Assembly (NCBI RefSeq): GCF_021298855.1
Contig: NZ_JAJTHI010000034.1
Location: forward strand, 1 to 64,000
Reading direction: 5' to 3'
Length of the DNA stretch: 64,000 nucleotides
From: Gemmatimonas sp.
Lineage (GTDB): Bacteria > Gemmatimonadota > Gemmatimonadetes > Gemmatimonadales > Gemmatimonadaceae
Shown piece by piece: positions 51,482-61,884 of this stretch; the first letter of the stretch is position 1; each line of letters starts with the position of its first letter. The notes beneath the pieces were generated by a model that saw only the letters and a program-made list of their open reading frames with translations, did no database searches and was not told where the DNA came from. A program made the translations under genes and the position numbers.

Positions 51482-52231
51482 TCAGACGTCGCGAAGTGGC
51501 TTGAGCTCTACACGCAGCTTGCTCAGCGCCTTGCTGCGAATCTGCGAGACGCGGCTTTCCGTGAGCTCGAGCACCTTGGCGATCTCGTGCAGCTTGAGCT
51601 CCTCGAAGTAGTAGAGCGAAAGGACGATGCGCTCCTGCTCCTTGAGCCGGAGGATCGCGTCCTTGAGATGGGCGACCTCCTGCTCGTGCGTGAGTGACGC
51701 CTCGACGTCGCTCGCCTGCTCACTGGTCAGAGTTTCCGCCGGCACGGGCGCCGTGCTTTCCCGGTCGCCCGGGGCCCGGTCGAGCGGCACGTGATGGGCG
51801 CCTTCGACGTCGGCCTGCCATCGCCAGAGCGTGTCCACATCCACGCCCAGCTGGGTGGCCAATTCGCGGTCCTCTGGTGCGCGGCCATGCGCCCGCTGAA
51901 AGGCTTCCCGGGCGCCGGTGATTTCGCGGGTTTTGCGCCGGACGGAGCGCGGCACGTGATCCTGCTTGCGCAGCTCGTCGAGAATCGCACCACGAATGCG
52001 TGGCGCCGCGAAGGTGCTGAAGGCCAGGCCGCGGGTGGCATCGAAGCCTTCGAGGGCGGTCATGAGGCCGATCGTCCCGGCGCTCACGAGTTCGTCGAAG
52101 TCGGTCCGCACGGCGAGCGTGCGCGAGACTTGCCGGGCCACGTGATGCACGAGACCGAGGTGCTCTTCGAGCAACCGGTCGCGGGCAACCGCGTTCCCTG
52201 CCTGATAGGATTGCCAGAGATTGGCGTTCAT
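51482..52231 (-). CDS. fliA: Flagellar RNA polymerase sigma factor FliA (sigma-28/WhiG family)
   Basis: 249 residues. Region 2 (RDRLLEEHLGLVHHVARQVS, DELVSAGTIGLMTALEGFDA, FSTFAAPRIRGAILDELRKQD) is intact. Region 3 (REAFQRAHGRAPEDRELA) and region 4 (LKEQERIVLSLYYFEELKLHEIAKVLELTESRVSQI, in pieces) follow. It directs RNA polymerase to late flagellar promoters. No flgM is seen nearby. ATG 52231 is chosen; a GTG at 52264, 2 nt after the flhG stop, is an alternative that would add 11 residues. Confidence 0.95.
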   Translation of the reverse strand: MNANLWQSYQAGNAVARDRLLEEHLGLVHHVARQVSRTLAVRTDFDELVSAGTIGLMTALEGFDATRGLAFSTFAAPRIRGAILDELRKQDHVPRSVRRKTREITGAREAFQRAHGRAPEDRELATQLGVDVDTLWRWQADVEGAHHVPLDRAPGDRESTAPVPAETLTSEQASDVEASLTHEQEVAHLKDAILRLKEQERIVLSLYYFEELKLHEIAKVLELTESRVSQIRSKALSKLRVELKPLRDV

Positions 52232-52266
52232 GGCCGTGGAACCGGAGGGAGCAGCGAAAGACACGA

Positions 52267-53142
52267 TCAGGTACCGGGGCGGGAGAGGGGTCGTTCGGCC
52301 AGCACGCGCATCACGACGTGGTGTGCGGCGGTGGCGGCCGGCGATCCGGCGGCGGCGTCAGGAAAGGGCATGCCCGCGCGCAGCGCGGCATCGAGGGTGG
52401 GGTCGGCCGGAATGGCCCCGGCCAGGCGTGGCGTGAGTCCGAGGAACTGCCGGGCCCCGGCGTCGATGGCATCAAAGCAGCGAGCGGCCTCGCTCCCTTC
52501 ATGGCGGTTGACGAGCACCTCGACCGGCAGGGCCGGGCGGGAAAGCCCGACGGCCTTGCAGAGGGCATAAGTGGCCGCGAGGCCCACGGGATCACTGCCG
52601 GCGGAGACGGCCATGAGCCGCTCGCTGCCAGTGGGTGTGACGGCCCCGAGCACATGATCGAGCCGGGCGCCGCAGTCGATGACCACGAGGTCCATGGCCT
52701 CGGCGAGCGTGCTGACCCGGCGCATGCAGGCCTTGCGTTCGGCGGCGCTCATTGGCGCTGCGGTGCGCGGGGCGTCGGCCAGCCGCGGGGGACCGCCGGC
52801 GACCAGGGTGAGAGTTGCACTCACCGGGGTGGCGACATCCGCCGGCGCGGCGCGCCCGGCGCGCAAGTCGGTCCAGCTGCCACGCGGGGAGATGCCAAGG
52901 GTCAGCGCCAGCGCCCCCACGAAGTCATCGGCGTCCACCAGCAGCACGCGCCGCCCTTCGCCGGCGGCACTCATGGCCAGCAGCGCCGACAGCAGCGTGG
53001 CCCCGGCCCCGCCGCGCCCGCTCGCGACGAGCAGCGTCGGCGCCGCCCCGCTGCGGGCGCCGCCGGCGCTCCGCGCGCTGCGCACGCCGTCGGCCTGCGT
53101 CGGTGGTACCGCTCCGCGCGGCACGGTCATGAGCAGCGACAT
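52267..53142 (-). CDS. flhG: FlhG/MinD-like ATPase with degenerate P-loop
   Basis: 291 residues, directly after flhF (TGATG, 1-nt overlap) and before fliA, the canonical place of flhG. The MinD fold is visible: VLLVDADDFVGALALTLGI, LVVIDCGARLDH and a C-terminal helical part. The deviant Walker A, normally KGGxGKT, reads GRGGAGAT (residues 42-49), with Arg43 and Ala48 in place of both lysines. It is therefore probably unable to hydrolyse ATP in the usual way. Intact FlhG sets flagellar number and stimulates FlhF. Confidence 0.82.
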   Translation of the reverse strand: MSLLMTVPRGAVPPTQADGVRSARSAGGARSGAAPTLLVASGRGGAGATLLSALLAMSAAGEGRRVLLVDADDFVGALALTLGISPRGSWTDLRAGRAAPADVATPVSATLTLVAGGPPRLADAPRTAAPMSAAERKACMRRVSTLAEAMDLVVIDCGARLDHVLGAVTPTGSERLMAVSAGSDPVGLAATYALCKAVGLSRPALPVEVLVNRHEGSEAARCFDAIDAGARQFLGLTPRLAGAIPADPTLDAALRAGMPFPDAAAGSPAATAAHHVVMRVLAERPLSRPGT

Positions 53143-53999
53143 CAGGCCGGCGCCCAGTCGGATTCGGCGTCGGCTGTCAGCCCCCACGAGCGCAGCAGCC
53201 GCGGCACGCCGGGCTTGAGATCGGCGGGCACGTCCTGACCGTCGGTGATCCAGCGCGTGGGCAACTCGAGCGACAGCGCCAAATCGGTGACCCCCGATTC
53301 CCGCGGCACCTCGTCGAGCTTGGAGAGCAGCAGGTGCGTGGCGCCACAGTGGGTGCGCGACGTGGCGTAGGCGCGGGCGATGTCCACGGCGAGGTCGGCG
53401 CGCAGACTCGCCGGCAGGACCAGGTGCACCTCGTCGGGGGCGATGACGTCGAGCAGCGTACGCCAGCGCTCCGTGAGCTCCGTGCTTGCCGGGCTGCGCC
53501 CCGGCGTGTCGATCAGAATCACGTCACAGTCGGCCGACAGTCGCTTCATGGCGGCGTCGATCTCCCGGGCCTCGTAGATGACTTCGAACGGGATGTCGGC
53601 GAGCTCGGCGTAGGTGGCCAACTGCTCCATGCCGCCCACCCGATAGGTGTCGAGCGTGAGGAGACCCGGGCGCGCGGCCCCGAACATGCCGCGGCGCACC
53701 GCGAGCTTGGCGGCGGTGGTCGTCTTGCCAGCCCCGGTGGGGCCCACCAGGGCGATGCCGTAGGGGCGGCCGTCGGCCTTGCGCAGCGTGGGTGGCAACG
53801 GCGCCGCGTCGAGGCGCGCGCGGACGGACTCGAGGGCGTGGCTCGGCGTCGCGAGCACCTCCACCATCGGTACCCCGCCCTCGCGCACGGTGCGCGTGTG
53901 GAGAATCATCACATCGTCGCCCAGCGTGCGCCGCGCGCGATCGGCCACGCGCGACAGGTCGACACCACGGAATCGTTCGACGGGCAGCAGACTAGCCAT
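53142..53999 (-). CDS. flhF: SRP-like GTPase FlhF (short form)
   Basis: 285 residues. A short N-terminal part (about 1-70) is followed by the NG GTPase: P-loop GPTGAGKTTTAAKLA (86-100), LLTLDTYRVGGMEQL, VILIDTPGRSP and SKLDE. It places the flagellum, usually at a pole. Many homologues exceed 350 residues; the difference is in the N-terminal basic/linker region. The start overlaps the 3' end of flhA by 8 nt. Confidence 0.93.
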   Translation of the reverse strand: MASLLPVERFRGVDLSRVADRARRTLGDDVMILHTRTVREGGVPMVEVLATPSHALESVRARLDAAPLPPTLRKADGRPYGIALVGPTGAGKTTTAAKLAVRRGMFGAARPGLLTLDTYRVGGMEQLATYAELADIPFEVIYEAREIDAAMKRLSADCDVILIDTPGRSPASTELTERWRTLLDVIAPDEVHLVLPASLRADLAVDIARAYATSRTHCGATHLLLSKLDEVPRESGVTDLALSLELPTRWITDGQDVPADLKPGVPRLLRSWGLTADAESDWAPA

Positions 54000-56085
54000 T
54001 GGGCATCTCCCAGGTAGCCACGCTGCTCAGCGTGATCTGCGCGGGGAGCTCGGCGAGCGAGACCACCGGCAGGCTGGGCAGCACGGGTTCAATCAGGCGC
54101 CGCACGCCCACGCGCAGCGACGGCGGTGTGATGAGCGGCAACGGACGGCCATCCACCGCATAGGTGGTGGCGAGATGGTTCAGATCCCGCAGCATGCCCG
54201 CGAGGGATTCGGGGGTGAGCATCGGCGTGGCCGCCTGGGCGGTGCGCGGCGAGAAGAGCCCCAGCAGGGCGCTCTCGAGGCGTGCCCCGATGGTGATCCC
54301 GCGCACGGTGCCCGTGGGGTCGGCGAAGAGCCGGGCGATGACGTTGGTGAGCGCCTTGCGGACCACTTCCGTCAGCACCTCGGGATCCTTCGTCGCCTCC
54401 GCGCCGTCGCCGACGGCTTCGAGGATGGTGACGAGGTCGCGAATGGGGACGCGCTCGCGCAGCAGGCGCTGGAGCACGCGGTGCAGCACGCTCAGCGACA
54501 CTTTCCCGGGAATGATCTCCTCCACCAACGCCGGGTGCGACTTCTTGAGCGTCCCCACCATCTCCTGCACTTCCTGGCGACCGAGGAGCTCGGCCGCGCT
54601 GCCCTTGAGCGTCTCGAGCAGGTGCGTGGCAACCACGGTCGTGGGCTCCACGACCACGTAACCCAGCGCTTCCGCCTCGGCGCGGCGAGAGGCCGCGACC
54701 CAGCGCGCCGGCATGCCGAAGCTCGGGTCGATGGTGTCCATGCCGTCGATCTCCGCCACCACCCCGCCGGTGTTGAGGGCCATCATGAAGCGCGGCAGCA
54801 CCTCGGCGCGGGCAACCTCGCTGCCGCGCAGTTTGATCACGTACTCGTTGGCCGGCAGCCGGATGTCGTCGCGGATGCGAATGGGCGGCACGAGGATGCC
54901 CAGCTCGAGGGCGGCCTGCTTGCGCAGCAGTGAAATGCGCTCGAGCAGGTCGCCGCCCTGCCCTTCGTCCACGAGCGGGATGAGGGCGTAGCCCACCTCC
55001 AGTTCGATCGGGTCGATCTGGAGCAGATCCTGCATGGGATCGGGGGTCCCCGCGCCCTCCGGGGCGTCACTCACCACCGGGGACAGCACCAGCGCCTCGG
55101 CAGCGCGCTGCGCCTCGGCCTGCGCCGACAGCTTCGCCAGCACGGCGGCCCCCGCGGCCATGGTGAGGAAGGGGAACATCGGGAGCGCGGGAATGAGCGA
55201 AAAGGCGCCAAGCACGCCCGCCACCATCCACATGGCGCGCGGATGGCCGCCGAGCTGGCGGCTGAGCACGGTGCCGATCCGGTCGGTGCTCGTCGCCGCC
55301 GTGACCATGATGCCGGCCGCGGTGGAGATGATGAGCGCCGGGACCTGGGACACGAGCCCGTCACCCACCGTGAGGATGGTGTACGTGCTCGCCGCCTTGC
55401 CCACATCCATGCCGCGCTGAATGACGCCGATGAAGATGCCGCCCACGATGTTCACGATCACGACGAGGATGCCGAGAATCGCGTCGCCCTTCACGTACTT
55501 CGAGGCCCCATCCATCGCGCCGTAGAAGTCGGCGGTGCGGGCGATCTCGTCGCGGCGGGTGCGGGCCTCCTTCTCGTCGATCAGGCCGGCCGAGAGGTCG
55601 GCGTCGATCGCCATCTGCTTGCCGGGCATGGCATCGAGGGTGAAGCGCGCCGCCACCTCGGCGATGCGACCGGCACCCTTGGTGATGACGATGAAGTTGA
55701 TGCCGATCAGGATGAGGAAGATGACGATCCCGACGGCGTAGTTGCCGCCGATGACGAACTGACCGAACGCCTCGATGACCTTGCCCGCGTGCGCCTCGGT
55801 GAGGATGAGGCGCGTGGACGACACATTGAGGCCGATGCGGAAGAGCGTGAGCAGCAGGAGCAGCGCGGGGAAGCTGCTGAAGTCGAGCGGGTTCGTGGTG
55901 TACAGCGCGACCAGCAGGACGACCAGCGAGGAGCCGATGCTGGCGGCGAGGAACAGGTCGAGCAGCACCGGTGGCAGCGGCACGATGATGAGCGCGAGGA
56001 TCATCACCACGACGAGGGCGACGGCGATCTCGGCGAGGCGCATCTTCGGCGCGCCGGGGCTGAGGGGCAGGGCAGCGGACGTCAT
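53992..56085 (-). CDS. flhA: Flagellar export gate protein FlhA
   Basis: 697 residues, the standard length. The N-terminal membrane part has about eight helices (MRLAEIAVALVVVMILALII start, the FHIPEP-type segment FPALLLLLTLFRIGLNVSSTRLIL in pieces). The cytoplasmic ring-forming domain (about 350-697) has the late LPVVSLAELP segment. It forms the nonameric cytoplasmic ring of the export gate and uses the ion gradient. It follows flhB with a 10-nt gap. Confidence 0.97.
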   Translation of the reverse strand: MTSAALPLSPGAPKMRLAEIAVALVVVMILALIIVPLPPVLLDLFLAASIGSSLVVLLVALYTTNPLDFSSFPALLLLLTLFRIGLNVSSTRLILTEAHAGKVIEAFGQFVIGGNYAVGIVIFLILIGINFIVITKGAGRIAEVAARFTLDAMPGKQMAIDADLSAGLIDEKEARTRRDEIARTADFYGAMDGASKYVKGDAILGILVVIVNIVGGIFIGVIQRGMDVGKAASTYTILTVGDGLVSQVPALIISTAAGIMVTAATSTDRIGTVLSRQLGGHPRAMWMVAGVLGAFSLIPALPMFPFLTMAAGAAVLAKLSAQAEAQRAAEALVLSPVVSDAPEGAGTPDPMQDLLQIDPIELEVGYALIPLVDEGQGGDLLERISLLRKQAALELGILVPPIRIRDDIRLPANEYVIKLRGSEVARAEVLPRFMMALNTGGVVAEIDGMDTIDPSFGMPARWVAASRRAEAEALGYVVVEPTTVVATHLLETLKGSAAELLGRQEVQEMVGTLKKSHPALVEEIIPGKVSLSVLHRVLQRLLRERVPIRDLVTILEAVGDGAEATKDPEVLTEVVRKALTNVIARLFADPTGTVRGITIGARLESALLGLFSPRTAQAATPMLTPESLAGMLRDLNHLATTYAVDGRPLPLITPPSLRVGVRRLIEPVLPSLPVVSLAELPAQITLSSVATWEMPNG

Positions 56086-56095
56086 GCGGGTCTCC

Positions 56096-57193
56096 TCAGG
56101 CGGCGGCCGTGCCGCGCCAGCCGGCGCCATGGCGCTGCTTCTCGCGCATCACGAAGGCCAGCACCTCCGCGATGGCCAGGTACATCTCCACCGGAATCAT
56201 CGTTCCCACCTTGGCGACCTTGATGAGGGCCCGGGCAAGCGGCTTGTTCTCGATCACCGGCACGCCGTGCTGAAAGGCGAGTTCCTTGATGCGCTGCGCG
56301 ATCTTGCGTTCGCCCAGCGCGACGATGTACGGCGCCGGCGCCACGGCCGGGTCGTACTTGATGGCGATCGCGATGTGGGTGGGGTTCACCAGCACCACGT
56401 CGGCGGTCTTCACGCTCGCGAACATCGTGCGCCGCACCCGCTCGCGCGCGATCTGGCGGCGACGCCCCTTCATTTCGGCGTTGCCTTCCTGCGACTTCAT
56501 TTCCTCCTTGACCTCCTGCTTCGTCATCTTGAGGTCTTCATTCGTCTTCCAGCGCTGGAAGCCGTAATCGGCGAGCGCGAGGACGAGGAACATGAGGCCG
56601 GTGTTGCGGAGCAGGGCGAAGCCGTAGGCGTTCACGAGCTCCATGAGGGCCATCGGGGATGGCGACAGCGCGAGCGCGAGAACGTCGGCCCACGCGTCCT
56701 CGAGCGTGGCGTACACGGCGTAGCTCACGATGCCCATCTTCAGCAGTCCCTTCGCGAGCTCCACCCAGCCCTGCAGGCCGAGCATGCGCTTGGCGCCGTT
56801 GATCGGGTTGAGACGCTCGAACTTGGGCTCGAGCGTCTTCGTGGTGAGGAGGCCCCCGGTCTGCAGCGCCTGCACGGCAATGGCGATCACGGCGAGCGAC
56901 GCCATGGCCGACACGGTGCTCACGATGACGCGGAAGCTGAGCGCCTGGAGATACGTGATGAGTCCGACGCCCTCGTAGGCACCATCGCCTGCCGTGGCGA
57001 GGGTGCGGCCGACGGTCTCCACGAGGAAGCGCCACAGCGGCGGCCCCGCGAAGGAGAACACCATGAGGGAGCCGAGCAGGAAGGCGGCGGTGACGAACTC
57101 GGGGCTCTTGGCGATCTGCCCCTTCTCCCGGGCTTCATCGAGGCGTTTGCCAGTGGGTTCTTCGGTCTTTTCGCCGGACTCGTTTTCCGCCAT
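56096..57193 (-). CDS. flhB: Flagellar export switch protein FlhB
   Basis: 365 residues. The N-terminus GEKTEEPTGKRLDEAREKGQ is characteristic, four membrane helices follow, and the cytoplasmic domain has the autocleavage motif NPTH at residues 270-273 (E. coli 269-272). Cleavage switches export from rod/hook to filament substrates. It lies 6 nt after fliR in the export block. Confidence 0.97.
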   Translation of the reverse strand: MAENESGEKTEEPTGKRLDEAREKGQIAKSPEFVTAAFLLGSLMVFSFAGPPLWRFLVETVGRTLATAGDGAYEGVGLITYLQALSFRVIVSTVSAMASLAVIAIAVQALQTGGLLTTKTLEPKFERLNPINGAKRMLGLQGWVELAKGLLKMGIVSYAVYATLEDAWADVLALALSPSPMALMELVNAYGFALLRNTGLMFLVLALADYGFQRWKTNEDLKMTKQEVKEEMKSQEGNAEMKGRRRQIARERVRRTMFASVKTADVVLVNPTHIAIAIKYDPAVAPAPYIVALGERKIAQRIKELAFQHGVPVIENKPLARALIKVAKVGTMIPVEMYLAIAEVLAFVMREKQRHGAGWRGTAAA

Positions 57194-58612: not shown

Positions 58613-60385
58613 CTACTTGAAGCTCTGCACCAGGCTCGTGATGGTGAGACTCCACCCGTCGACGAGCACGAAGAGCAGCAGCTTGAAGGGCAGCGAGATC
58701 ATCGCCGGGGGCAGCATGAACATGCCCATGCTCATGAGCACGCTCGCCACCACGGTGTCGATGATGATGAACGGCAAGTAGATCGCGAAACCGATCTGGA
58801 AGGCCGTGCGCAGTTCGCTGGCCACGAACGCGGACATCAGCACGTGCAGCGGCACGTCGTCCACGGTGGCGGGTCGTGGCAGGCGACTCAGTTCGACGAA
58901 GGTCTTGACGTCGCTCTCCCGCGTCTGCCTGAGCATGAAGGCGCGCATCGGTTTCACGCCCTCCGTCATCATTTCCACCTGGGTCATCTTGCCGTCCAGC
59001 CAGGGCGTGATGGCCGTGCGGTGCATTTCGGCGAGCGTGGGCCCCATGACGAAGCCGGTCAGCAGGAGCGCCATGGCCGCGAGCAGCTGGCCGGGTGGCG
59101 CACTCTGGGTGCCCATGGCCTGCTTGAGGAACTGCAGCACGATGAGGATGCGGGTGAAGCCCGTCATCATGAGCAGCAGCGTCGGCAGCAGCGTGAGCAG
59201 CCCCATCATGATGACGATGCCCACGGTGCCGTTCAGGCGCAGTCCGCCATTCTCGGCGTCGCCGCCCACCTGGACATCCATCTGCGGCATCATGCGCATG
59301 ATGGCCTCATCGGCGGCGATGGGCGCGGGGGACGCGCTCTGGGCCTTGGGTGGCACGTCGGTGGCGCTGTCCACGACCACGCGGTTCATGGGCTGACGGG
59401 GCGCGGTACCCTGTGCCGTCACGGCAGCCCCGTTGCCCGGGCGCGGAACCGGCGGCTGGGTGGCGGGCCCGACGGCGCGGGAGGGCGTGAGGCGCGGGGC
59501 CGGGCGCGGCGGCGCGGCCGGCGGCTGGCCAACGGTGATGGGGACGAGCGGCGCGAGATCGAGCTTCGGCACGTCGATCACGAGCGGCGCGGTTGCCGGG
59601 GTCGCCGGACGGATGGTCGTGGGGGGCGCCGAGGCGGGCGTTGGCGGCACCACCGGCGGCTGCACCACGGGTGGCTGCGTCGCGGGGGTCTGGGCCACGA
59701 GCGTCGAGGCGGACGTCATCGTGAAGACGGCGAGCATGGCGGCCAGTCGGGCGGTCCCCCCCAACGCCAGGTCGAGCATGGGCCCGAACCCGCGAGCGGC
59801 CGACGTCGGTCGGATGGGCGTCGGGTACGTCAGCGGGGTCCCACGGCTCGTGGTGAGGGGCGCGGTGAGAAAGCGCGGGATCTCGGCGCGCTCGGTGAGG
59901 GACAGGGGCGCGAAGGATGCCGCCGCCACCGGCGCCGCCGCCACCGGCGCCGCCGTGCCGGGTCGCGCCACCTCGTGCGCGGGGCCAGCCTCCGAGCGGA
60001 GCTGCTGGCCGAGCAGGCGCCCGAACGGGCCGGCGAGGGATGCCGGCACGAGCGGGCGGTACGCGGCCGCCGCCTGGGCGCTCGACCGGTGCGGCACCGG
60101 CACGGCGCTGCTCGCCACCACCTGCTGGCGATCACGCTCGTCGAGCTCGAAGAGCGTGGTGACCCCGCCTTCCCCCACGGCGAGCGCCACGACCTTTTCG
60201 CCGACGCGCACGACGGTGAGCCCGGTCTTCGGGCCCAAGGGGACCCGCTGCACCACTTCCACGGGGAGACGCACCGTGGCCGACAGGGACCCCATGCCCC
60301 AGCGCTTCAGTGCCCACAGGCACACGGCCCCGAGGCCGAGGACGAAGGTGAGGGCAGCGATCACCCCGAGTGACGCAATCAGCAT
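58613..60385 (-). CDS. Fused FliO-FliP flagellar export protein
   Basis: 590 residues in a single frame. Residues about 1-110 match FliO: one membrane helix, then VVQRVPLGPKTGLTVVRVGEKVVALAVGEGGVT. A linker leads to an internal signal-peptide-like helix (residues 203-232, MLDLALGGTARLAAMLAVFT), then about 130 proline-rich residues. The FliP core ends the protein (about 360-590): GFTRILIVLQFLKQAMGTQSAP, LLLTGFVMGPTLAEMH, VDDVPLHVLMSAFVASELRTAF-like and PFKLLLFVLVDGW. FliO and FliP are normally separate; FliO helps FliP assemble. An internal ATG at 59779 could also yield a 388-residue FliP with its own signal peptide. Confidence 0.9.
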   Translation of the reverse strand: MLIASLGVIAALTFVLGLGAVCLWALKRWGMGSLSATVRLPVEVVQRVPLGPKTGLTVVRVGEKVVALAVGEGGVTTLFELDERDRQQVVASSAVPVPHRSSAQAAAAYRPLVPASLAGPFGRLLGQQLRSEAGPAHEVARPGTAAPVAAAPVAAASFAPLSLTERAEIPRFLTAPLTTSRGTPLTYPTPIRPTSAARGFGPMLDLALGGTARLAAMLAVFTMTSASTLVAQTPATQPPVVQPPVVPPTPASAPPTTIRPATPATAPLVIDVPKLDLAPLVPITVGQPPAAPPRPAPRLTPSRAVGPATQPPVPRPGNGAAVTAQGTAPRQPMNRVVVDSATDVPPKAQSASPAPIAADEAIMRMMPQMDVQVGGDAENGGLRLNGTVGIVIMMGLLTLLPTLLLMMTGFTRILIVLQFLKQAMGTQSAPPGQLLAAMALLLTGFVMGPTLAEMHRTAITPWLDGKMTQVEMMTEGVKPMRAFMLRQTRESDVKTFVELSRLPRPATVDDVPLHVLMSAFVASELRTAFQIGFAIYLPFIIIDTVVASVLMSMGMFMLPPAMISLPFKLLLFVLVDGWSLTITSLVQSFK

Positions 60386-60433: not shown

Positions 60434-60874
60434 TCAGGCCGCGCTCGCGGGAGCGGCGGTCGCGGTAGCGCTGGGCGTCGCCAGGACGCGCGTGATGCGC
60501 ACCCCGAAGTGTTCGCCAAGCACCACCACTTCACCCTCGGCAAAGCGACGGTCGCCCACGAAGATGTCGATGGGTTCGCCGGCGAGGCGGTCCAGCTGGA
60601 TGACCGAGCCCCGGCCCAGGCGCAGGAGCTCCTGCACCATCATGCTCGTCCGTCCGAGTTCGATGGAGACGGGCAGCGTGAGATCGAGCAGCATGCTGAT
60701 CGGCACTTCCGTGCCACCCAGCATCGTCTGCTTGAAGTCGGTAAACTGGGGAGCGCGAAACGCCGGTGCGCCGGGGGCCGCACCCGGGTCCTCCATGAGA
60801 GACGAGATCGGCTGCCCGGCGGCCTTGGCGGCCTGCGCGCTCGCGACGAGGGCATCAATTTCGGCGGTGTTCAT
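60434..60874 (-). CDS. fliN: Flagellar motor switch protein FliN
   Basis: 146 residues. The C-terminal SpoA domain has VPISMLLDLTLPVSIELGRTS, LLRLGRGSVIQLDRLAGEPIDIFVG and GEVVVLGEHFGVRITRV (in pieces). The N-terminal 50 residues are alanine/proline-rich. It builds the lower C-ring and docks the export ATPase complex. It starts 11 nt after fliM. Confidence 0.96.
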   Translation of the reverse strand: MNTAEIDALVASAQAAKAAGQPISSLMEDPGAAPGAPAFRAPQFTDFKQTMLGGTEVPISMLLDLTLPVSIELGRTSMMVQELLRLGRGSVIQLDRLAGEPIDIFVGDRRFAEGEVVVLGEHFGVRITRVLATPSATATAAPASAA

Positions 60875-60885
60875 GTGCGAAAGGG

Positions 60886-61884
60886 TCAGAAATTCGACGG
60901 GGGAGAGGGGAGCGCGTCCACGACGCGCACCGCGAGATTGCCGTTCACGCGTCCGGCGTGCCCGATGAAGCGGTCCTGCGTCCCGGCGCGCACGATCACG
61001 CGCGCGTCCTTCGGGATGCCCGTGGGGATGATGCTCCCCTCGATGATCTGCGACAGGTCGCGCAGGCTGAGGCGGAAGTCGGGCAGGCGCGCGGTGATTG
61101 GCACCTTGGTCGCGCGCAGCGCCGCTTCACTTCGCTGACGCGTCTGCTCGCGTTCCCGTTCGTTGGTGGAAAGCAGGGCCAGACGCTGCTGCCCGCTGGA
61201 CGTGAAGAACTTGTCGAGGACGGTCAGGGGCAGGCACAGCAGCAGCAGGCTGCTCACGTTGCCCGTACTGAACTCGAGGTTGGCCACGAGCACCGGATCC
61301 TCGCGGTTCACCACCTGCAGGATTTCCGGCGAGGATTCGAACCCCGTGATGTTGAGGTCCAGGGGCACGTGGTCCTGCCAGATCTCCTGCAACAGCGCGG
61401 TGATCTTGTCGGCCACGCTGCGTACGGCCATGCGCTCGATGGGCGTGAGCACCCGCGTCAGCGACGCGCCGGCTCCCTCCCCACCGAAGAAGCGGTCCAC
61501 GAGGAATGTGCTGAACTCGGGACCGATGTCGAGGACGCCCTTCTGGCCGGTGCCGGTGATGTCGAAGATGTACGAGGTGCAGGGCATCGGCAGCGAGAGC
61601 GTGAACTCGGCGAAGGAAAACTGCTCCACGCTCTGCAGCCGCACCTCGATCTGACCGCGCATGCGCGAAATGAGCCACACCTCGAGCCCCTTCACGAGGC
61701 GTTCGTACATGGCTTCCAACGTGCGCAACCGTTCCTTCGACACCCGGTGCGGACGACGAAAGTCGTAGACCTGCAGATCGAGCGGGGCCGCCGCGAACGG
61801 CGCGTCCGGCGCATCGTCCGCTCGGGTACTGCTCCCGCCGAGCAGGCGATCGATGTCGTTCTGGGAGAGGGCTTCCGTGCTCAT
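60886..61884 (-). CDS. fliM: Flagellar motor switch protein FliM
   Basis: 332 residues. The N-terminal EALSQNDIDRLLGG is the CheY-binding type peptide. The CheC-like middle has YDFRRPHRVSKERLRTLEAMYERL and FDITGTGQKGVLDIGPEF, and the C-terminal SpoA domain follows (PITARLPDFRLSLRDL). It transmits the CheY signal to the rotor. It follows fliL with a 26-nt gap. Confidence 0.97.
   Translation of the reverse strand: MSTEALSQNDIDRLLGGSSTRADDAPDAPFAAAPLDLQVYDFRRPHRVSKERLRTLEAMYERLVKGLEVWLISRMRGQIEVRLQSVEQFSFAEFTLSLPMPCTSYIFDITGTGQKGVLDIGPEFSTFLVDRFFGGEGAGASLTRVLTPIERMAVRSVADKITALLQEIWQDHVPLDLNITGFESSPEILQVVNREDPVLVANLEFSTGNVSSLLLLCLPLTVLDKFFTSSGQQRLALLSTNEREREQTRQRSEAALRATKVPITARLPDFRLSLRDLSQIIEGSIIPTGIPKDARVIVRAGTQDRFIGHAGRVNGNLAVRVVDALPSPPSNF

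Follow-up and report, generated by a model that had tools for sequence, protein, structure and literature searches.

In the usual view, FlhG is an ATPase that sets flagellar number through its ATP-bound dimer; the canonical protein alternates between an ADP-bound or apo monomer and an ATP-bound dimer that binds the membrane. The flagellar operon analysed here, from Gemmatimonas sp. (GCF_021298855.1), raises the question of what an FlhG does when the lysines of its nucleotide-binding loop are gone. All coordinates refer to the window, a 64,000-nt stretch comprising positions 1-64,000 of contig NZ_JAJTHI010000034.1. A deviant Walker A motif requires both the signature and the P-loop lysine (KGGxGK[ST]), and the Gemmatimonas FlhG has neither; in place of the canonical SGKGGVGK[ST] it reads SGRGGAGAT, with Arg43 (CGC, 53016-53014) and Ala48 (GCC, 53001-52999) replacing the two lysines. 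An earlier note on this DNA described the gene as an FlhG-like ATPase missing both lysines; its coordinates and residue numbering were correct, and the strand, which it left unstated, is the minus strand (Table 1). The plus-strand reading of 52267-53142 gave nothing FlhG-like. Our literature search turned up no publication on the FlhG of Gemmatimonas and, with the terms used, no report of a lysine-less FlhG.

The gene and its identity

The gene order flhA-flhF-flhG-fliA is conserved, and flhG lies directly downstream of flhF, whose end is overlapped by the flhG ATG. A GTG at 53187 could mechanically serve as an alternative start and would give 306 aa; however, the 15-codon extension that it would add contains an in-frame TGA in several sister species, and the ATG at 53142 is therefore the likely start. 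Two further properties of the operon were observed. A single frame of 590 aa encodes a FliO-FliP fusion (58613-60385, minus strand; FliO, residues 24-127; FliP, residues 393-585). FlhF is short, with 85 residues before the G1 motif (178-286 in Bacillus, Pseudomonas, Aeromonas and Acetoanaerobium; 76-92 in the other Gemmatimonadota FlhF proteins checked, and 146 in one protein of family f2); in this FlhF and the others checked the N-terminal motif is there, but the linker is missing and so, apparently, is the N domain.

Table 1. Positions of the flhG locus features and related flagellar genes in the window
Feature	Position	Strand	Remarks
flhG (lysine-less FlhG)	52267..53142	-	ATG at 53142, stop at 52267 included; 291 aa
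N-terminal enhancer helix (FlhF GTPase activator motif)	53065..53100	-	residues 15-26, TQADGVRSARSA
Degenerate deviant Walker A	52996..53022	-	residues 41-49, SGRGGAGAT
Walker B Asp156	52675..52677	-	invariant in the no-lysine clade
Alpha6-like helix (TYALCK) with invariant Lys196	52540..52590	-	residues 185-201; helix in the model
Phe233 (FLG)	52444..52446	-	with Lys196, the other conserved residue on the putative C-ring-binding face
flhF	53142..53999	-	285 aa; SRP-type GTPase, G motifs intact
fliA (flagellar sigma factor)	51482..52264	-	directly downstream of flhG
flhA	53992..56130	-	directly upstream of flhF
fliM	60886..61884	-	N-terminus MSTEALSQNDIDRLLGG
fliN	60434..60874	-	N-terminus MNTAEIDALV

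The protein is a true FlhG orthologue, and the identity proposed in the earlier note was borne out by profile, tree and fold, which group it with FlhG/FleN and not with TadZ, ParA or MinD. The best phmmer matches in the PDB were FleN (1.8e-15) and FlhG (2.6e-11), and a profile of 26 Gemmatimonadota relatives matched the FlhG/FleN structures with E values of about 1e-46 (6.7e-47 for 4rz2), as against 1e-23 for MinD. With the AlphaFold (AF2) model (pLDDT 89.5, pTM 0.85), the nine best PDB matches in Foldseek were all FleN or FlhG (including 5j1j, 4rz2 and 4rz3). Viral structures, also searched with Foldseek, yielded no useful match. In a tree of 99 rows, the Gemmatimonadota proteins from the flhG operon position formed one clade (support 99) adjoining the canonical FlhG clade (96; Aeromonas, Pseudomonas, Bacillus, Rossellomorea, Azospirillum, Acetoanaerobium and Aquicella); FlhG was placed apart from the TadZ/Ssd-like, ParA-like and BY-kinase rows, the single separating branch being weak (69). 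Profile scores were 130-160 bits for canonical FlhG versus 83 or less for TadZ/Ssd-like proteins. A second FlhG paralogue, for which the earlier note had advised a search, was not found in the genome with the canonical FlhG profile (117 bits for the FlhG studied here, 51 for the next match); the other matches were ParA-, BY-kinase- and Mrp/NifH-like frames.

With FlhG/FleN/YlxH the protein shares the operon place, the fold, the N-terminal FlhF-activating helix with its Gln, the YALxK helix and the Walker B Asp. It differs from them in the absence of the P-loop and signature lysines and in its short C-terminal tail (14-20 residues shorter than in most canonical proteins), where the FFxxL-type amphipathic end of the Aeromonas, Pseudomonas and Bacillus proteins is not obvious and a weakly amphipathic helix remains. 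The shorter tail would fit a loss of membrane cycling, but the f2 proteins, whose lysines are intact, are short as well. The lysine-less loop pattern RGGxG[AT][ST] is shared with TadZ/CpaE/Ssd, the best precedent for the working of such a loop, and a TadZ/Ssd-type protein, with its normal RGGxGxS loop, might have taken over the place of FlhG in the operon; the best NCBIfam match was indeed the Ssd/CpaE model TIGR03815, although its 50 bits are far below the cut-off of 154. Such a displacement, which we regard as extremely improbable, was rejected on the tree and the profiles, and the PDB profile search, the enhancer helix and the fold likewise indicate FlhG. TadZ/CpaE/Ssd branch as a clade of their own, and the receiver domain that TadZ carries at its N-terminus has no counterpart in the protein studied here, where only about 35 residues precede the P-loop strand; the operon and partners of the protein are flagellar.

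Spread and history of the lysine loss

P-loops were read from Gemmatimonadaceae (family f1; 26 from Gemmatimonas and 36 others) and from families f5 (n = 9), f4 (n = 1) and f6 (n = 1). The P-loop lysine was absent from all 73 orthologues, with Thr, Ala, Val or Ser instead, and was present in all 11 proteins of family f2 (in the same order as the genome studied here), in the single f9 protein and in 7/7 proteins from other phyla. The f9 FlhG grouped with Azospirillum in the tree, and its genome (L154, G346) carries an Azospirillum-type flhF-flhG pair, which may reflect horizontal transfer or contamination. When the P-loop and N-terminal columns were excluded from the FlhG tree, the lysine-less proteins were on one side of a branch (support 98), corresponding to one change; the FlhA+FliA tree also gave one change of the P-loop lysine (support 90), and a grouping of f1 with f2 was not rejected (p = 0.34). 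These trees are consistent with a single loss of the P-loop lysine in the ancestor of Gemmatimonadaceae and related families. Loss of the signature lysine came afterwards and occurred several times (9 changes when Arg and other states are counted). Every readable Gemmatimonas copy (26/26) lacks both lysines, with Arg in place of the first and Thr, Ala or Ser in place of the second. The description "both lysines missing" holds for Gemmatimonas and for some other lineages; most of the other relatives lack the P-loop lysine only (KGGVGTS).

The source genome is a draft of 91 contigs, and such a loop might have arisen by an error of sequencing or assembly, or by a recent mutation that inactivated the gene in a single strain. 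However, GRGGAGAT recurs unchanged in the closest genome of the genus (92% protein identity), and the trait is found in all 26 Gemmatimonas copies, those from single-contig genomes included, so that this is no chance misread; an error was rejected on the strength of a whole genus and several assemblies, and its probability is practically negligible. The earlier note had named intact lysines in close relatives as one observation that would count against its reading; the P-loop lysine was found in 0/26 Gemmatimonas and 0/62 family members. The loss is no peculiarity of one gene; it is a trait of a large clade that takes in Gemmatimonas and the majority of the other flagellated lineages in its phylum, and the lysine-less FlhG is a real, old and clade-defining variant, wider than first thought. 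Absence of the ATP-dependent partner FlrA/FleQ was considered as the cause of the loss and set aside as not discriminating. No FleQ was found in the genome studied here; matches to FleQ were weak or absent in both the canonical and the lysine-less groups, and rpoN was present in all 37 genomes tested and does not discriminate either. The missing FleQ thus explains nothing by itself, because it does not separate the two groups. Two database entries require comment: CALQGY020000005.1 (L167), titled Candidatus Kuenenia stuttgartiensis, carries a Gemmatimonas-type flhG locus (66% identity) and is probably a mislabelled or mixed bin, and NZ_AP026896.1 (L240), a 4.9-Mb Aeromonas caviae "plasmid" with a flagellar operon, looks like a mislabelled chromosome.

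Constraint on the lysine-less FlhG

The gene is under purifying selection and is no pseudogene. It might nevertheless be regarded as a vestige, that is, a functionless and decaying FlhG retained through its place in a translationally coupled operon: it evolves the fastest of the four genes compared with the nearest genome (dN/dS of 0.163, versus 0.106 for flhF, 0.053 for fliA and 0.031 for flhA), and it shrinks repeatedly in some genera. Against this, dN/dS is well below 1 in every pair, the reduced "mini" proteins described below included (0.19 between two of them), the lysine at position 196 is invariant, and among the flagellated Gemmatimonadaceae whose flhA-fliA junction could be read, none lacks flhG; we give the vestige little credence. 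Within the gene, residues 201-275 are among the most strongly constrained, and the N-terminus is the weakest.

In other species the Gln of the DQAxxLR helix is co-catalytic in the FlhF GTPase, and FlhG triggers the release of FliG by FlhF to FliM/N (PMC12826062). This enhancer helix is present here in the derived form TQADGVR (helix 16-26 in the model), and Gln16, at the co-catalytic Gln position, is found in 26/26 Gemmatimonas proteins, in which the residues flanking the helix vary freely and the N-terminus is otherwise variable; across the relatives the motif is [ST]QxDxL/VR, the first Asp being replaced by Thr or Ser. The active-site Gln of FlhF (GQ) was present in all 54 rows in which FlhG has its Gln and missing from 8 of the 17 in which it does not, Pseudomonas included. 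Co-evolution of FlhF and FlhG is suggestive only, because the co-variation amounts to 3:0 independent pairs (p = 0.25) and is not significant after correction for relatedness.

In nine Gemmatimonadaceae (G143, G176, G250, G221, G040, G021, G023, G190 and G234), flhF is missing from the operon, and a search of these genomes for FlhF gave just Ffh- and FtsY-sized frames. All nine keep flhG between flhA and fliA, and none has the enhancer helix (0/9). Binding of FlhF therefore cannot be the sole function of FlhG. The "constitutive FlhF binder" of the earlier note survives in part: a role directed at FlhF without normal ATP cycling is plausible, the FlhF-activating helix being kept, and it is not the whole function. 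In four of these FlhF-less genomes (G021, G023, G190 and G234) a mini-FlhG is encoded (L050, L051, L052 and L126; group g4), of 183-184 aa in three, whereas in the fourth 150 aa could be read before the contig ends. The mini-FlhGs lack about 90 residues (about 61-150), those that separate the P-loop helix from the Walker B strand, and retain the P-loop glycines and the Walker B Asp; the ten best PDB matches of a mini-FlhG model (pLDDT 82) were FlhG and FleN.

The lysine of the YALxK helix (Lys196) was present in 91/91 rows with a residue at this column, canonical and lysine-less alike, and the proteins that have it are otherwise lysine-poor (two to four lysines). Phe233 is Phe in 47/51 sampled lysine-less rows. 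The residues K177, R207 and F215 of Geobacillus FlhG, which we take to be those binding FliM/FliY, were located on the 4rz2 sequence with a constant offset of 8 (the Lys of YAMMK, the Arg of FERL and the Phe of RFL) and correspond to Lys196, Ala225 and Phe233; thus, two of the three are kept in Gemmatimonas, and the Arg is not. All three are kept in the mini-FlhGs. In Shewanella the part bound by FlhG is the N-terminus of FliM, and FliM binds FlhG regardless of nucleotide, whereas FlrA binds the ATP-bound dimer only (PMC11236974); in Bacillus the binding of FliY by FlhG is also nucleotide-independent (PMC12327844). As for the partners encoded in the window, the N-terminus of FliN resembles the FliM/FliY N-terminal peptide bound by FlhG in other species, and FliM carries LSQNDIDRLLG.

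Nucleotide pocket and function

The earlier note had proposed an "ATP-dead" protein. The loss of the two lysines is not enough to establish this, and we avoided the label because of the precedent of TadZ and the persistence of the pocket residues. The TadZ of E. rectale was reported to have ATPase activity despite the loss of both lysines, a lysine in a nearby helix compensating (PMC10482377), and CpaE/TadZ has been described as an ATP-binding dimer. In the lysine-less clade Gly47 (52/52), Ser/Thr49 (52/52), Asp156 (51/51) and Asn212 (45/51) are kept, so that most of its members do not have a randomised pocket, and Arg142 is conserved and specific to this clade. The pocket might thus be rewired, with ATP still bound and perhaps slowly hydrolysed by way of the main-chain glycines, Ser/Thr49, Asp156 and a substitute base, and FlhG would then still be regulated by nucleotide. 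However, the P-loop and switch residues decay repeatedly in the clade while the gene persists. The switch residues are conserved in 42/48 (Asp70) and 28/48 (Asp72) rows, a switch Asp being replaced or gone in several lineages; the loop in L044, L048 and L049 is SAATEGAGAT or SAPRRGSGVS with an unrecognisable switch region (these FlhG proteins lack the enhancer helix, and their FlhF partners have altered GTPase motifs: DPDR for DTYR, a changed DTPGR and GPTGGGKTLT); the mini-FlhGs lack residues of about 61-150 altogether; and the protein studied here has only two lysines, 137 and 196. We consider the rewired pocket unlikely, though it is the most serious of the rivals.

On balance we favour another explanation, namely that FlhG turned into a mainly nucleotide-independent activator of FlhF and adaptor of the C-ring after one ancestral loss of the P-loop lysine. 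The lysines have been lost and yet selection preserves the protein, so that it probably serves the growing flagellar motor as a protein adaptor and not as an ATP-driven switch. As a sequence of events, the ancestor of Gemmatimonadaceae and related families would have dropped the phosphate-binding lysine once, and Gemmatimonas would later have dropped the signature lysine too. The resulting FlhG most likely does not cycle between monomer and ATP dimer, or does so weakly; its N-terminal helix would provide the Gln that triggers GTP hydrolysis by FlhF, and its alpha6/Phe face would hold the C-ring proteins FliM and FliN. An FlhG unable to form the ATP dimer is predicted to keep FliM binding and FlhF triggering and to lose transcriptional feedback and membrane cycling, and the activities predicted to be kept match what is conserved in the lysine-less proteins.

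Several points count against the adaptor. The residues of the pocket for ATP use are strongly kept and would be unneeded by a pure scaffold. The Vibrio FlhG P-loop lysine mutant K31A is non-functional and hyperflagellates (PMC7226244), and the lysine-less TadZ is reported to have ATPase activity. The Arg of the presumed C-ring trio is not kept in Gemmatimonas, and the FlhF/FlhG co-variation is not significant. Another laboratory mutant speaks in favour of the adaptor: B. subtilis FlhG D65A, a hydrolysis-dead locked dimer, had no visible effect on hook distribution. K31A and D65A share with the Gemmatimonadota FlhG the alteration of a residue of ATP binding or hydrolysis; unlike theirs, its alteration arose in nature long ago and is fixed in a whole clade. 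A stronger form of the adaptor explanation, in which an ATP switch was converted in one step and clade-wide to a nucleotide-free adaptor of the C-ring and FlhF, with a 184-residue core serving the C-ring alone in the FlhF-less genera, is put forward tentatively, as somewhat short of an even chance.

If true, the functions of FlhG would here have been separated by nature. A clade that does without the P-loop lysine, and in some members without FlhF as well, is a natural experiment on which parts of FlhG are indispensable: selection retains the alpha6 lysine face throughout and the FlhF-activating Gln wherever there is an FlhF. In the lysine-less clade those functions of FlhG that are independent of ATP would become directly testable.
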